Below are positions 3,328-26,292 of a stretch of 63,435 nt of DNA, one piece after another. The stretch covers positions 1 through 63,435 of the forward strand of contig JAJYDQ010000013.1 in NCBI GenBank assembly GCA_021777225.1. The letters are read 5' to 3'. The stretch comes from Deltaproteobacteria bacterium. Lineage in GTDB: Bacteria > Desulfobacterota > Desulfomonilia > Desulfomonilales > Desulfomonilaceae. Numbering within the stretch: the first letter of the stretch is position 1; each line of letters begins with the position of its first letter. The notes beneath the pieces were generated by a model. That model was not told where the DNA came from and ran no database searches. It saw nothing but the letters and a program-made list of their open reading frames with translations. Position numbers and translations under genes: made by a program.

Positions 3328-5524
3328 ATTCAAAGCGCCTTTCCGTCCTTAACACTGCCTCCCTGAATTTTGCCGCCATCCGAGTCGCCTCTGGATGGCT
3401 TCTTAGTTCTTGCAACGTAAACTTTGTTTTTGTAACCCAATTAGGACGTTCTGTTGTGGTACCAGGAAGGTTCTGCTGGCGCGTATCCAATACGAGATCT
3501 TCCATGCTTACGATTGCAAGCAACGATGGAGTCTTCAAGATAAAATTCAGGGCCGCTGTATGTAATTCATCAGTTGGGATTTCAGATGTCCATGCGCCAT
3601 GAGCGACTTCGGGAACCAGGCATCCGTCGTGAACCAGGCGTTCGATAATTTTAGCTTTCTGCTCCGCTCGTTCGGAAATGATGGTATGTTTTTCTTCCTG
3701 TTTGATACGGCCGATCTGAACCCTTTCTTCAATGTCGAGTCCCTGCCAGAAACCTGCGAAAGTCGGTAGATCGTGATTGGAAAGCGATACAATCGCTCGT
3801 TCAGGATAATCGCAAAATGAGATTTGATTGAGTTCTGCATCCCTTTCAAAGTAAAAAATCCTGTAGGAAAAGATCCCACGATCGATCAGCCTATCCCTGA
3901 AATTAAACGGCAAGGTTCCAAGGTCCTCGCCCACGACAATATTCCGGCTTCTCAAACTTTCCAGTGTCAGTACATTTAGCAGATCCTGTTCATCATCCTT
4001 GACATAAACACCGTTCTTCGGCTGCGATCCCGACGGTATCCAGAATAAATGATGAATTTGCATGACATGGTCAATCCTCAGCGCGCCGCCATGCTTGGAA
4101 TTGGCGGCAATGCTTTTTCGAAAAGGAGTAAATCCCGATTTTTTGACCTGTCCGGAATCTGGAGGTTGGAAACCCCAATCCTGTCCATCGGGGGCAAACG
4201 CGTCAGGGGGCGCTCCAACCGTAAATCCACTCACGAAATATTCCGGTCTCGACCAACTGTCAGCGCCGTTTGGATCAACGGCCAGGGCGACATCATGATA
4301 CAAACCAATTAACATTCCCTTCTCAACGGCGTGTTGCTGGGCTTCAGACAACTGTTTTTGAACTATCCATTGTAAAAAGCCATGAAACAGGACATCTACA
4401 TTATGCTTCGCCCTAAATCTTTTTACTTCAGGAGATTCAGGATGACGGAAACCCTCGGGCCAGTTGCGCCACTTGTGAAGGTTGGGCGCGTTAAAAAGTA
4501 AATTTTCCCGAAGGACGCAAAAAGTGGCAAATCGATCAAGATCTTCACCTTCGGAGTTAACAAAATTTCTAAACTCTTCCCATAGCGATTTACAATCAGA
4601 AGTGTCTTTGTGAGTATAAACATGGTCAAAAACTTTACGGAGCGACCTGTTCTTGAGGGTTGCCACCCCTTCATAATCAACGTATCGTTCAGCTCGTAAT
4701 CTTGATGTTTCGGCTGCAATTTGATGATCAGCCAACATCTCGTCCAACAACTCCCGAGAAATTGAACCGGCCGCTTTAAGAACGTCTATATATATATAAT
4801 TGTAGAACATTCGACTCGAAGGCATGTAAGGGCTGCAATTGAAAGGGCTAGCGTTAAATAGAGCATGAAGAGGATTTAACCCAACGAAATGAACTCCAAG
4901 ATCATCAAGGGCCCAATCTATAATTTCCACAAGATCTGTGAGATCACCAACGCCCCAATTATGTTCCGATCGTACGCCATATAAAGATATGGCAATTCCC
5001 GCTACCCGCTGACCCTTTTCAATCGGTTCAGGAGCGTAGGCTTTTTCCGGCGCTACAATAATTCTCAGTTCATTGGATATTACGGAATCATGGACCGTAA
5101 TATCCAGATTGAAGCTGTAATAACCAGGCTTGAGATCGGCCGGAAGCGGAGCCATTATACGAGTGAGGCCTGTTTTTAGGTCAAAGTCCAATGATGTCTC
5201 AGGACCATCAAGATGGCGTGTTATAGGTTCAAATGTGAAACTTAAGTCGGTTAAATGGATCATTCCGTTTTTTAGGAGATGGTCACGTAAAGCCGACGGG
5301 ACATCTATATAGACGGGAACGCACGACTCTACATTGTCAGTGCTGAAAGTCACAGTTTGAGGTGATGTGACCAGCAGCTCAGGATCAATTCGAGCCCCCT
5401 TTTTTTCGAGAATGTCGCGTAGAACGGATGATTGGGTTTGAAAAGTTTTACCCCAATTGTCAGTGTACTGAAGCTCGACGCCAAAAATCTTCGCTAATAG
5501 TTGCAACGCCTCGTATGAATTCAT
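3317..5524 (-). CDS. malQ: 4-alpha-glucanotransferase (amylomaltase)
   Basis: A GH77 enzyme of 735 aa that disproportionates alpha-1,4-glucans in the cytoplasm (maltodextrin/glycogen metabolism). It has an N-terminal MalQ-type extension, then a catalytic barrel with GLNPLHALFN, MLIGLYHDVALAVDPNGADSW (a hallmark MalQ segment; contains the nucleophile Asp region), LRIDHVMQIHHLFWIPSG and VVGEDLGTLP, the last carrying the acid/base Glu. Its length fits the longer (E. coli-like) MalQ class. The start ATG is preceded by AAAGGAAC. It stands alone, convergent with an orphan and divergent from the acyl-CoA dehydrogenase; no glycogen operon is visible here. Confidence 0.95.
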   Translation of the reverse strand: MNSYEALQLLAKIFGVELQYTDNWGKTFQTQSSVLRDILEKKGARIDPELLVTSPQTVTFSTDNVESCVPVYIDVPSALRDHLLKNGMIHLTDLSFTFEPITRHLDGPETSLDFDLKTGLTRIMAPLPADLKPGYYSFNLDITVHDSVISNELRIIVAPEKAYAPEPIEKGQRVAGIAISLYGVRSEHNWGVGDLTDLVEIIDWALDDLGVHFVGLNPLHALFNASPFNCSPYMPSSRMFYNYIYIDVLKAAGSISRELLDEMLADHQIAAETSRLRAERYVDYEGVATLKNRSLRKVFDHVYTHKDTSDCKSLWEEFRNFVNSEGEDLDRFATFCVLRENLLFNAPNLHKWRNWPEGFRHPESPEVKRFRAKHNVDVLFHGFLQWIVQKQLSEAQQHAVEKGMLIGLYHDVALAVDPNGADSWSRPEYFVSGFTVGAPPDAFAPDGQDWGFQPPDSGQVKKSGFTPFRKSIAANSKHGGALRIDHVMQIHHLFWIPSGSQPKNGVYVKDDEQDLLNVLTLESLRSRNIVVGEDLGTLPFNFRDRLIDRGIFSYRIFYFERDAELNQISFCDYPERAIVSLSNHDLPTFAGFWQGLDIEERVQIGRIKQEEKHTIISERAEQKAKIIERLVHDGCLVPEVAHGAWTSEIPTDELHTAALNFILKTPSLLAIVSMEDLVLDTRQQNLPGTTTERPNWVTKTKFTLQELRSHPEATRMAAKFREAVLRTERRFEFKA

Positions 5525-22817: not shown

Positions 22818-25769
22818 TTATTTATGATCATCAGGCGCCAACAATTCGTCTTTCCATGAAACGGGTATCCTCAGGGTTCGACCATCCTTTCGCTGATACA
22901 GGAGATAACCATTTTCGACCCCAAACTGATACAGGTCTCTTGTAATTGCAACGTCGTCTCGACAGTATTTTTCGAGCAAATCAAAGCGTCCCTGTCGAAA
23001 CCAAGCGGGCGCATCAGTTCCACTTCCACTTTTGTTTCTACCCAAAGTGAATTGCGCCAGATGATTAAGACTCAAACGATGTCCTATCTTCTTTTGAATT
23101 TCCAAAAGAATATCCAGGTTGCGACCGGTGCGAAGGTTTTCTTTGGTGTATGCGGTAAGGACTTCGTAATCAAACTTTATGTGATTAAACCCCACGACCA
23201 TATTAGCGCTTTTCAGCAAGCTCACAAGTTCATCTACCTTTTCTTCAGTGAAACAACGGAACCCATTGATATCCGAATAGGTTACCGCAATAGAAAGCCC
23301 CATCTTAGCGACATTATTCCAGCCGCCAACGTCATTGGACAACTTCTGTGTTTCAAGGTCAAAGAAAATTATTTCCGTGGAAGTGCTGTTATTCGGGGGC
23401 ATTTCGAGTTCCTTTATCTGGTTAAAGGTCTGTTCTTTGGTGATTTCAATTACATTGTTCTTTTGGGTAGCTGACGCTTTAACTCGCTTTTCTTTAGGTC
23501 TCTTTGTGAGCTTTTCCCGGGAATTCGACAAAAGTTCAGGGTGGAGAAGATATTCCAGGATCTTTATACAGGCCTGTTTATCCAAAGGTTTGTTGCCGGA
23601 TCCACATTTGGGCGAGTGTATGCAGGACGGGCAGCCTATTTCACACTCGCAGTTTCTTACTAGATTCAACGTAGTTTTTAAAAGCTCTTCGAGAACATCA
23701 AAAACACGGCTCGAAAGCCCCACGCCACCAGGATGACCATCATATATGAACACCGCGGCCCTGCATACCTGTTCATGCTCAGGACAACTTATACCACCAA
23801 TGTCATCACGTTCACACAGAGCGAACAGCGGGAACATCGAAATCGCCGCGTGTTCCATGGCATGTATGCCACCCATGAAATGCAGGTTGGCTTTGATTAT
23901 GGCCTGTTTAACCTGATCAGGAATTTCTATCCATAACCCTATGGTATCAAATGTAAGACTAGGCAAATGCAGGTCCATTACACCTATCAATTCCTGACCG
24001 CTGGTTCGGCGCTTTTCATATCCGGTTATTCTCTCCGTAACCCGGAGTTTGGCTTCGCGAGCCATAAATCCAGGGAACTCTCTGGAACGCAAAGGCGCTC
24101 CCAATATTTTTGTGTCCTTTTCTGATACGCATTTTGTGTAATAGCTAACAGAGCAAGGGCTCACAAATACATTATGTCTTTCAAGATCAAGCTTTTTTAC
24201 AACGTATTGTTTGGTTCTGTGTAAATAAATCGCGCCTTCGTGACATTCATGAAACGCTCTGGCGCCCGACGATCCCCCTATAGGCTTTTGCCCTCCTTCT
24301 AGGAATATTGAGTAAGAACTGCCGACATTACGGAGATCTACACCCCTGTGAGGTCTAGGGTTTACAGAATTCAATATTCCATCGGGCGATCTATAAAGGA
24401 CGCCTGCCGCCAGCAAATCCTCCGTAGCCGATTGAGCTTCTTTGGTCCTAATCCATGCTTCTGAGCTATCTATGGGTAATTCCGCGGCGGCGCAAGGTAT
24501 GTGCCTCTTTAGAACTTCAATATTTAGCGGATCCAGTGTCGCTTCTTCAAATTTACGAGCGAAAAAATCTGTTGGATTATGGACAAAATATTGATCAAGA
24601 GCGTCCTGGCCAGCGATCATAACTATCGCGCTGGGACGCCCCTGCCGCCCAACTCGACCACCACGCTGCCAGGTATTAACAATAGTCCCAGGGTATCCTA
24701 CCAGTATACACAGGTCCAAGCCTCCAACATCTATCCCCATCTCCAAGGCTGAAGTCGAGATTACTCCATCAAGCTGTCCCGAAAAAAGTTTAGCTTCAAT
24801 CTCACGACGCTCCTCTGGCAAAAATCCTGCTCTATAGGAACTTATCCGGTTCCTTAATTGAGGAGCTTCATTTAAAGCCCATAGCGTTATCAGCTCAGTA
24901 ATTTTTCGGGCCCGCGTGAAAACTATTGTCTTGAGTCCCGATTTAAGGGCCCTCACGAAAAGTGAAGAAGCTACCGTATATGGACTTACGACCGGATTTA
25001 GAAAAACGAAATGTCTGAGCGGATTCGGCGCCCCGGATTTGTCAACTACGGAAACATCTTCATCAATTAAAGTGGAAACAAATTTTCCAGGATTACCGAT
25101 AGTGGCGGAGCAGGAAACAAACTGCGGCCTGTTCCCATACAAACCGCAAACTCTCTTTGTCCTGAGCAGTACCTGAGAAACATGACTGCCGAAGATCCCC
25201 TTATATGTGTGAACTTCGTCCAGAACAATCAGAGAAAGCCTCTTAAAAAAATCTCGCCACGTATCATGAAAAGCCAGCAAACCTAAATGAAGCATGTCGG
25301 GATTTGTTATCAAAACCCGGGGAGGATGATTTCTAATTTTCTTTCGTTCCGAATCGGGCGTGTCACCGTCATAAACTCCAGCGCTCAAAACAGTCTTGGA
25401 GGAAAGGTTCAAGAAAGAATCAAGTTGATCACGTTCAAGGGCCTTAAGGGGGAACAACATAAGTACATGCGATAGTGGGTCCCTAACGAGGCGGTCGATT
25501 GCAGGGATTTGGTAACAGAGGGTCTTGCCGCTTGAAGTGCTTGTGGACAGGGCTACGTTCTTGCCCTTCAGGGCCTCTGAGACGGCCTCTGCCTGATGAG
25601 AATAAAGATAACGTATATTCCTCGATTTTACCATGTCCCTTACAACGGCATGGACTTGAGGGGGCAAATCTTTGAAGGCAGGTTTTCTCTCAGGCAACAG
25701 TTCATGGTGAATTACTTGCCAGTTGGTTCCAGCCTGCGTTTCCAACCATTCTAAAAAATCAGAAACCAA
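22818..25769 (-). CDS. DEAD/DEAH helicase with zinc-binding C-domain fused to a DEDD-type 3'-5' exonuclease
   Basis: A 983-aa protein. Residues about 50-500 are an SF2 helicase: Walker A STSSGKT at 77-83, DEVH at 184-187, SCSATIGN, and the C-terminal motif VGRQGRPS. Residues about 540-730 resemble the MrfA (DUF1998) domain, with a Cys cluster CECEIGCPSCIHSPKCGSGN near 705-727. Residues about 795-960 form an RNase H-like exonuclease with FDLET, GFNHIKFDYEVL and YCRDDVAITRDLY (DEDDy pattern). In Bacillus the equivalents are the separate MrfA helicase and MrfB exonuclease of a mitomycin-C lesion repair pathway; here they appear joined in one chain. The start is a TTG at 25769, the best in-frame choice, moderately certain. 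Confidence 0.88.
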   Translation of the reverse strand: MVSDFLEWLETQAGTNWQVIHHELLPERKPAFKDLPPQVHAVVRDMVKSRNIRYLYSHQAEAVSEALKGKNVALSTSTSSGKTLCYQIPAIDRLVRDPLSHVLMLFPLKALERDQLDSFLNLSSKTVLSAGVYDGDTPDSERKKIRNHPPRVLITNPDMLHLGLLAFHDTWRDFFKRLSLIVLDEVHTYKGIFGSHVSQVLLRTKRVCGLYGNRPQFVSCSATIGNPGKFVSTLIDEDVSVVDKSGAPNPLRHFVFLNPVVSPYTVASSLFVRALKSGLKTIVFTRARKITELITLWALNEAPQLRNRISSYRAGFLPEERREIEAKLFSGQLDGVISTSALEMGIDVGGLDLCILVGYPGTIVNTWQRGGRVGRQGRPSAIVMIAGQDALDQYFVHNPTDFFARKFEEATLDPLNIEVLKRHIPCAAAELPIDSSEAWIRTKEAQSATEDLLAAGVLYRSPDGILNSVNPRPHRGVDLRNVGSSYSIFLEGGQKPIGGSSGARAFHECHEGAIYLHRTKQYVVKKLDLERHNVFVSPCSVSYYTKCVSEKDTKILGAPLRSREFPGFMAREAKLRVTERITGYEKRRTSGQELIGVMDLHLPSLTFDTIGLWIEIPDQVKQAIIKANLHFMGGIHAMEHAAISMFPLFALCERDDIGGISCPEHEQVCRAAVFIYDGHPGGVGLSSRVFDVLEELLKTTLNLVRNCECEIGCPSCIHSPKCGSGNKPLDKQACIKILEYLLHPELLSNSREKLTKRPKEKRVKASATQKNNVIEITKEQTFNQIKELEMPPNNSTSTEIIFFDLETQKLSNDVGGWNNVAKMGLSIAVTYSDINGFRCFTEEKVDELVSLLKSANMVVGFNHIKFDYEVLTAYTKENLRTGRNLDILLEIQKKIGHRLSLNHLAQFTLGRNKSGSGTDAPAWFRQGRFDLLEKYCRDDVAITRDLYQFGVENGYLLYQRKDGRTLRIPVSWKDELLAPDDHK

Positions 25770-25809: not shown

Positions 25810-26292
25810 TCATTGAATCCTTTCCATGTCCCAATCCGGGAAGATCAGCATCTGGCCAACGATGAAAGCTTCATCCCCCTCGACGATGTCATGAAAATCC
25901 TTTATTAAACCAAATTTGTCCCTGGTATATTTCTGAATGACAATATAAGGTTGACCTCCCTGTATCGAAGTCGCCAGAACCAGAGCGTCTTCACCGGAGC
26001 CTGTTCGGCAATCGATTATAGTCGAATTGGTAATTGTGGTAACTGCGAACGCGTGTCTCTTGAGGGCCTCTTTCTTTACGTATTCTACACATTCTTTTTT
26101 CTGCTGATTATTTTCAAACGGTAGGAGTATCGGCAACAGTCCGGACATTGTATGCAGGATCGCTGTAGGGGTATGAGCCCCCGATGTTTCAAGTGTCTGT
26201 CGCGCTATTGGAGCCATTTTACGGACAGATTCCATAACCATATCGGTAACAGCCACAATGACGGTGGACATGGTAACTGTTTCATTATTCAT
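25810..26292 (-). CDS. conserved-looking hypothetical protein
   Basis: A 160-aa protein with alternating hydrophobic and polar segments and no signal peptide. Its order is an N-terminal helix region (VTDMVMESVRKMAPIARQTLETSG), a leucine-rich segment (AILHTMSGLLPILLPF), then a beta-rich half (AFAVTTITNSTIIDCRTGSGEDALVLATSIQGGQPYIVIQKYTR) ending in DWDMERIQ. Small alpha+beta folds with this profile occur among sensors, but I cannot name a family. A downstream Met (MSTVIV) is an alternative start. It lies between moeA and the helicase on the same strand; co-transcription is possible, 147 bases after moeA. Confidence 0.55.
   Translation of the reverse strand: MNNETVTMSTVIVAVTDMVMESVRKMAPIARQTLETSGAHTPTAILHTMSGLLPILLPFENNQQKKECVEYVKKEALKRHAFAVTTITNSTIIDCRTGSGEDALVLATSIQGGQPYIVIQKYTRDKFGLIKDFHDIVEGDEAFIVGQMLIFPDWDMERIQ

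Follow-up and report, generated by a model that had tools for sequence, protein, structure and literature searches.

A widely conserved fusion of a YprA-family helicase and a DEDDy exonuclease in Desulfobacterota, a probable single-chain counterpart of MrfAB

The fusion gene and its surroundings

The window, that is, the whole stretch of 63,435 nucleotides analyzed here, carries at 22818-25769 of its minus strand a frame of 983 codons without internal stop. The product is made of a helicase (residues 1-754), a linker (755-796) and an exonuclease (797-983), whose features are compiled in Table 1. Pfam searches of the 983-aa protein returned DEAD (104.7 bits), Helicase_C (50.4 bits), WHD_HRQ1 (30.8 bits) and the MrfA Zn-binding domain MZB (81.1 bits), together with RNase_H_2 (PF13482) at residues 801-948 (28.4 bits, with a cut-off of 22); no TPR was matched by Pfam in the protein. 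The mean pLDDT of the full-length model was 86.8. The first-pass annotation had described a complete DUF1998-type helicase, C-terminal Cys cluster included, and a DEDDy exonuclease in one polypeptide, and this is borne out by the Pfam matches and the conserved residues. The motifs that it had pointed out, FDLET (803-807) and YCRDDV (935-940), are both present, the latter as Y-x3-D, which is the DEDDy arrangement, and its domain boundaries of 1-780 and 795-983 agree with the model, in which residues 755-796 are disordered.

Table 1. Features of the fusion gene, with positions in the window.
Feature	Position	Strand	Basis
Whole ORF, 983 aa, TTG start	22818..25769	minus	YprA-type helicase and C-terminal DEDDy exonuclease
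Helicase part, residues 1-754 (RecA1, RecA2, winged helix, OB/connector, MZB Zn domain)	23508..25769	minus	Pfam; match to PDB 6znp
Walker A region, residues 75-83	25521..25547	minus	T78, S80, G81 and K82 invariant in a 46-row alignment
DEVH box, residues 184-187	25209..25220	minus	D184, E185 and H187 invariant in a 46-row alignment
Zn-binding cysteines C707, C709, C713, C716	23622..23651	minus	Invariant in a 46-row alignment; MZB match at 639-717
Linker, residues 755-796, predicted disordered	23382..23507	minus	pLDDT <50 across 755-796
Exonuclease domain, residues 797-983	22821..23381	minus	RNase_H_2; model pLDDT 93.5; PolB exonuclease fold
Exo I motif FDLET (D804, E806)	23349..23363	minus	D804, E806 and T807 identical in 79/79
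Exo III motif YCRDDV (Y935, D939)	22950..22967	minus	Conserved in aligned exonuclease sequences

The helicase-exonuclease fusion is real and widely conserved. Seventy-two of the 79 distinct exonuclease sequences from the fetched loci lie in the same ORF as the helicase, with more than 900 aa, and a full-length profile found an unbroken match across both halves in 65 of the 247 genomes of the window's phylum that were searched; a chance ORF or an assembly join is thus ruled out. In three further genomes (G122, G240, and G089) the same profile matched in pieces, the exonuclease included, and the resulting 68 genomes span 26 families. The scan of the genome collection used peptides of the window's protein, and the closest named records that it gave were Syntrophaceae and other delta-proteobacterial MAGs. 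Two other long frames were rejected as fusions: the 1034-aa frame of G275 holds a helicase of some 750 residues, preceded by a stretch that has no Pfam match, and at L141, a candidate MrfA-MrfB fusion with a 1214-aa frame, the helicase sits in a different frame, so the genes are adjacent and not fused. The helicase of G151 runs off the contig edge.

In 71 fused sequences, the spacer between the Zn motif and the DxET motif ranged from 57 to 340 residues (median 73), and this range, together with the disorder predicted for the linker, speaks for a loose tether rather than a fixed interface. The longest linkers look low in complexity. The Desulfovibrio-type records L069, L070, L071, L073, and L076 are fused proteins of this kind, with seemingly low-complexity linkers of 232-340 residues.

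A single match to the entire fusion protein was found in the genome that contains the window (4.04 Mb, 97.6% complete). A second MZB-bearing protein, a 623-aa frame on contig G000:C32, was not returned by the whole-protein search. Additionally, a 1128-aa frame of this genome (L132:104-3487, contig G000:C35) carries RNase_H_2 (PF13482) at residues 321-497, followed by SF1-type AAA helicase domains. In the window, the neighbors of the fusion gene are MoeA-like, MoaE-like and protease-like ORFs, as read from the ORF list, and a hybrid histidine kinase. An ORF of 160 aa without Pfam match (25810-26292, minus strand) precedes the fusion gene by 40 bases and is kept at this place in close relatives; it was found at 8 of 85 loci, several of which are duplicate entries of a genome with two names. 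The histidine kinase was found at 18 of 85, weak kinase matches included. Both genes are concentrated in close relatives, and the gene neighborhood gave no clue to function.

Catalytic domains and distribution in the phylum

The helicase half shows the features of the YprA/MrfA family: an SF2 core (DEAD and Helicase_C) above the Pfam cut-offs, an MZB/DUF1998 Zn-binding domain with four Cys, and an MrfA-like fold over the whole helicase. The best PDB match of the whole model was MrfA (6znp; Z 38.5, 681 aligned residues, rmsd 5.7, model residues 1-742), and phmmer of the fusion protein against MrfA gave an E-value of 3.6e-130. The best NCBIfam match, TIGR03817 (DECH_helic), covers the helicase part only (20-742) and, with 664.5 bits, stays below the curated cut-off of 874.1, so the protein is not assigned to that family.

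The exonuclease half has an intact D-E-D-D-Y catalytic set (D804, E806, D867, D939, and Y935). The first three of these residues are identical in all 79 exonuclease sequences, D939 in 78 (one gap) and Y935 in 77 (one gap and one His). At L026, a natural DEDDh variant of the fused DEDDy domain reads HCKLDV, with His replacing the catalytic Tyr. The isolated domain matched RNase_H_2 with 33.4 bits (cut-off 22); MrfB rows of the same class scored 116-136 bits. Its best structural match was the exonuclease of a B-family polymerase (5mdn; Z 14.6, rmsd 3.8, 167 aligned, residues 1-189), and H9C0I0 was the closest predicted viral protein (TM 0.79). The distance from Exo III to the C-terminus is of only 32-65 residues in 71 sequences. 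A sequence search of the PDB with the domain alone gave no match at E 10; the profile search returned T7 polymerase marginally (E 0.012) and no MrfB among its 12 rows. MrfB was also absent among the best 50 structural matches listed for the exonuclease model, an absence that excludes nothing.

Regarding the distribution in the same 247 genomes, MrfB (E at most 1e-30) was present in 31, and 28 of these had an MrfA-type helicase by score, which was confirmed by tree for the sampled ones only. In 22 of the 28 pairs, both genes lie on one contig within 1 kb. An example is the split pair of L088 (an f2 genome of the same class), in which the final 4 bases of the helicase ORF also belong to an MrfB ORF of 438 aa, with the motif HNRIDV and an E-value of 4e-29 against the PDB MrfB 8un9. 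No genome had both the fused protein and MrfB, when 8.5 would be expected if they were independent. It must be noted that the figure of 2e-5 obtained for this exclusion at the genome level is inflated, since the exclusion follows the phylogeny and close relatives are counted. At the family level the overlap was also zero (26 fused and 11 MrfB families), with a modest hypergeometric value of 0.016 if 88 families are taken. A single functional niche that either version can fill would agree with this mutually exclusive distribution.

The exonuclease and the helicase also occur apart. Six sampled genomes have a sister helicase for which neither exonuclease profile found a partner at the thresholds that were set, so the nuclease is dispensable in that lineage; G064 was excluded from this count because, just upstream of its helicase, a YprB-like ORF is truncated by the contig edge. 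Genome G262 (99% complete) has a stand-alone exonuclease, and the full-length profile found in it no helicase of the fused kind, so the exonuclease can act without the helicase. In this genome (G262:C22), the intact stand-alone exonuclease gene comes immediately after an HD-domain, dNTPase-like gene, the two genes occupying L133:3110-3769 and 3770-4936. L134 and L135, from the window's genus, are second exonuclease copies without helicase; at L134 the exonuclease gene is followed by a helicase-like ORF whose translation reads as having an N-terminal nuclease-like region. Three genomes of one family (G099, G161, and G188) have an MrfB-like gene (E 1e-45 or better) and no YprA helicase match at E 1e-60.

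These results bear on whether the protein might process replication forks or recombination intermediates, by a WRN-like coupling of helicase and DEDDy exonuclease and with no special role at bulky adducts. WRN is a known helicase-exonuclease enzyme and the fused exonuclease resembles the proofreading domains of polymerases, which agrees with such a role. However, the helicase is of the YprA/MrfA type and not RecQ (its match to WRN reached only 23 bits), and the distribution of the fusion complements that of MrfAB. We consider such a role unlikely.

Ancestry of the two halves

In the helicase tree, B. subtilis MrfA and six MrfB-associated helicases of the phylum formed one group (support 100), and 18 fused rows together with the helicase-only lineage (6 genomes) formed the other (support 100); all 18 fused rows fell on one side of a branch with a support of 83. 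These were quick trees with SH-aLRT support only. As placed by them, the helicase half is not MrfA proper, lying outside the clade of B. subtilis MrfA.

With respect to the exonuclease, the fused domain was compared by profile with four groups. The E-value was 1.4e-50 against 15 viral or plasmid exonucleases, 8.3e-5 against MrfB, 6.1e-5 against the haloarchaeal partners of YprA helicases, and 0.0083 against the type of stand-alone PF13482 protein found in its own genome. The match to MrfB, which the first-pass annotation had taken this half to resemble, is thus remote. In an exonuclease tree of 60 rows, from which the near-copies or fragments L153, L157, L161, and L162 were left out, the fused, stand-alone and viral rows formed one group (support 99/91); MrfB, in a clade of its own (100/97), the PF13482 stand-alones and the haloarchaeal partners fell outside it. 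According to AU tests, a clade of fused, stand-alone and MrfB exonucleases was rejected marginally (p 0.041), a clade of fused exonucleases and haloarchaeal partners was not rejected (p 0.20), and the fused exonucleases alone as one clade were rejected (p 0.010). The stand-alone exonucleases L086, L104, L134, and L135 are nested among the fused ones, which points to fission or duplication, or to repeated fusion. The simplest reading of the trees would be one fusion in the lineage of the fused helicases, the nested stand-alones then being the outcome of later fission, duplication or helicase loss.

The profile phrog_403 was matched by all 48 rows of the exonuclease domain (best 4.2e-18) and all 15 viral or plasmid exonucleases. 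It was also matched, more weakly, by all 10 MrfB rows (best 5.8e-9), and for this reason it was dropped as a phage-only label that could stand as sole evidence. Likewise, the difference between DEDDy and DEDDh was dropped as the sole criterion, because the haloarchaeal partners of YprA helicases are also DEDDy. In this regard, on the haloarchaeal plasmids L169, L170, and L171 the RNase H-like protein just before the YprA helicase reads YCEDDV or YCEADV; the one that was scanned, L169, carries a helix-hairpin-helix, unlike Bacillus MrfB, and on L170 the helicase is directly followed by another RNase H-like gene (3844-4485).

The PF13482 domain is what the fused exonuclease has in common with MrfB, and it was found to have neither the DEDDh active site, nor the C-terminal TPR, nor the placement in the MrfB clade. 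Its D-E-D-D-Y set, its placement with viral members by profile and tree, and its PolB exonuclease fold are those of the phrog_403 group. On this sequence evidence, it is not MrfB and has a separate ancestry. A phage origin is favored, and favored at most, given the p-values of 0.041 (MrfB) and 0.20 (haloarchaeal partners) in the AU tests.

An alternative is a true MrfA-MrfB fusion, in which the two Bacillus-type genes would have been joined in frame and the His of the exonuclease changed to Tyr. The shared PF13482 domain would agree with it, as would the catalytic His or Tyr, which in both lies equally far ahead of the last Asp; in addition, the DEDDy partners (YCEDDV) beside haloarchaeal YprA helicases mean that Tyr alone leaves kinship with YprB possible, and the AU tests rejected the grouping with MrfB only marginally and the haloarchaeal one not at all. 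Nevertheless, the split of the exonuclease tree, the distance between the phage E-value and those of MrfB and the haloarchaeal partners, the lack of TPR and the position of the helicase outside the B. subtilis MrfA clade make this origin improbable, and the claim that MrfA is joined to MrfB is not supported.

The scenario that we put forward instead, tentatively and with some doubt, is that many Desulfobacterota-type lineages descend from an ancestor in which a phage-type, proofreading-like DEDDy exonuclease became joined, a single time, to a YprA helicase. The result would be a self-contained lesion-excision enzyme that takes the place of MrfAB, a convergent assembly of one repair machine, as two genes in one version and as a tethered chain in the other, of which both versions never occur in one sampled genome.

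Proposed function and comparison with known systems

MrfAB is reported to consist of a 3'-5' helicase and a 3'-5' exonuclease that are needed for survival to mitomycin (PMC12458937, PMC11194089), MrfB being a metal-dependent exonuclease that is epistatic with MrfA in mitomycin repair (PMC11194089). By analogy, we propose with a probability of roughly 60% that the fusion protein is a 3'-5' helicase of the YprA family flexibly tethered to a 3'-5' DEDDy exonuclease of the PolB-proofreading/phage type, and that it is a single-chain, non-orthologous counterpart of MrfAB, probably for the excision of bulky lesions. The polarity, the substrate, the coupling of the two activities and a role in the repair of mitomycin or other bulky adducts would all follow from this analogy. 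The idea of a single-protein lesion-repair machine, already raised in the first-pass annotation, remains plausible.

The helicase part would probably load on single-stranded DNA close to a bulky lesion and then translocate, opening the duplex around the lesion so that a 3' end or a displaced strand becomes accessible; the exonuclease on its tether would then digest the lesion-bearing stretch and leave a gap for resynthesis. In this way a single chain, whose helicase comes from another YprA lineage and whose exonuclease is non-orthologous, would do what the MrfA and MrfB pair does in Bacillus and, presumably, elsewhere in the phylum. UvrA is present in the same genome, so lesion excision does not depend on the fusion protein alone and the latter would offer a second route.

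An anti-phage defense helicase-nuclease, similar to the YprA helicases of DISARM, Dpd, Druantia, ARMADA or TALON, which are central to such systems and in some cases reported with C-terminal nucleases, TALON RNase H folds included (PMC12458937), is quite improbable, since the PADLOC models that match the helicase core do so in short or partial stretches with generic helicase models leading, no defense genes were identified among the neighbors in the window, a single full-length copy is kept across 26 families, and the catalytic residues of the fused domain are conserved whereas the RNase H of TALON is reported as inactivated (PMC12458937).

If lesion excision by a tethered pair is right, the coupling of helicase and exonuclease could be tested through one linker, by shortening, cutting or lengthening it, which the two-protein MrfAB does not allow. 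It would also mean that a repair enzyme of the same kind was assembled twice independently in a single phylum, and that the two versions could be cleanly compared. The architecture itself is not wholly new, as YprA-YprB fusions are touched on in passing in a 2025 preprint (PMC12458937); in the main text of that preprint the term "DEDD" has no occurrences, and in the open literature that was consulted we met neither the different ancestry of the exonuclease nor the mutual exclusion. The same preprint states that complementation requires alleles that are closely related (PMC12458937). The label "MrfA-MrfB fusion" would be a misleading annotation, given that the nuclease half appears to be of another ancestry.

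Among known systems, MrfA/YprA of B. subtilis, a DUF1998 SF2 helicase, has the full domain order in common with the helicase half, including the winged helix and the MZB with four Cys; the helicase of the fusion differs in belonging to a separate clade and in having no partner gene but an exonuclease attached C-terminally through a linker. MrfB/YprB of B. subtilis (8un9) shares with the fused domain the DEDD 3'-5' exonuclease superfamily, PF13482 and the role of partner to a YprA helicase. However, MrfB is described as DEDDh (His258) with a C-terminal TPR (PMC11194089), whereas the fused domain is DEDDy, has the short stretch past Exo III indicated above and matches MrfB only remotely by profile. 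The phage "DNA polymerase exonuclease subunit" of phrog_403, gp06 of Bdellovibrio phage phi1422 and their relatives on viral contigs belong to the same clade as the fused domain, and the GFN and YCxxDV motifs are common to most of them; the viral exonucleases stand alone, without a fused YprA helicase, and measure about 200-300 aa in the rows that were used. The C-terminal RNase H of the TALON YprA, reported as inactivated (PMC12458937), sets that protein apart from the fusion. Finally, S. aureus DinG (SaDinG) is likewise a single polypeptide that combines a helicase with a 3'-5' exonuclease, but its helicase is of the DinG type (5'-3') and its exonuclease is N-terminal and DEDDh; this DinG-exonuclease fusion has itself been compared with MrfA and MrfB (PMC12345164).
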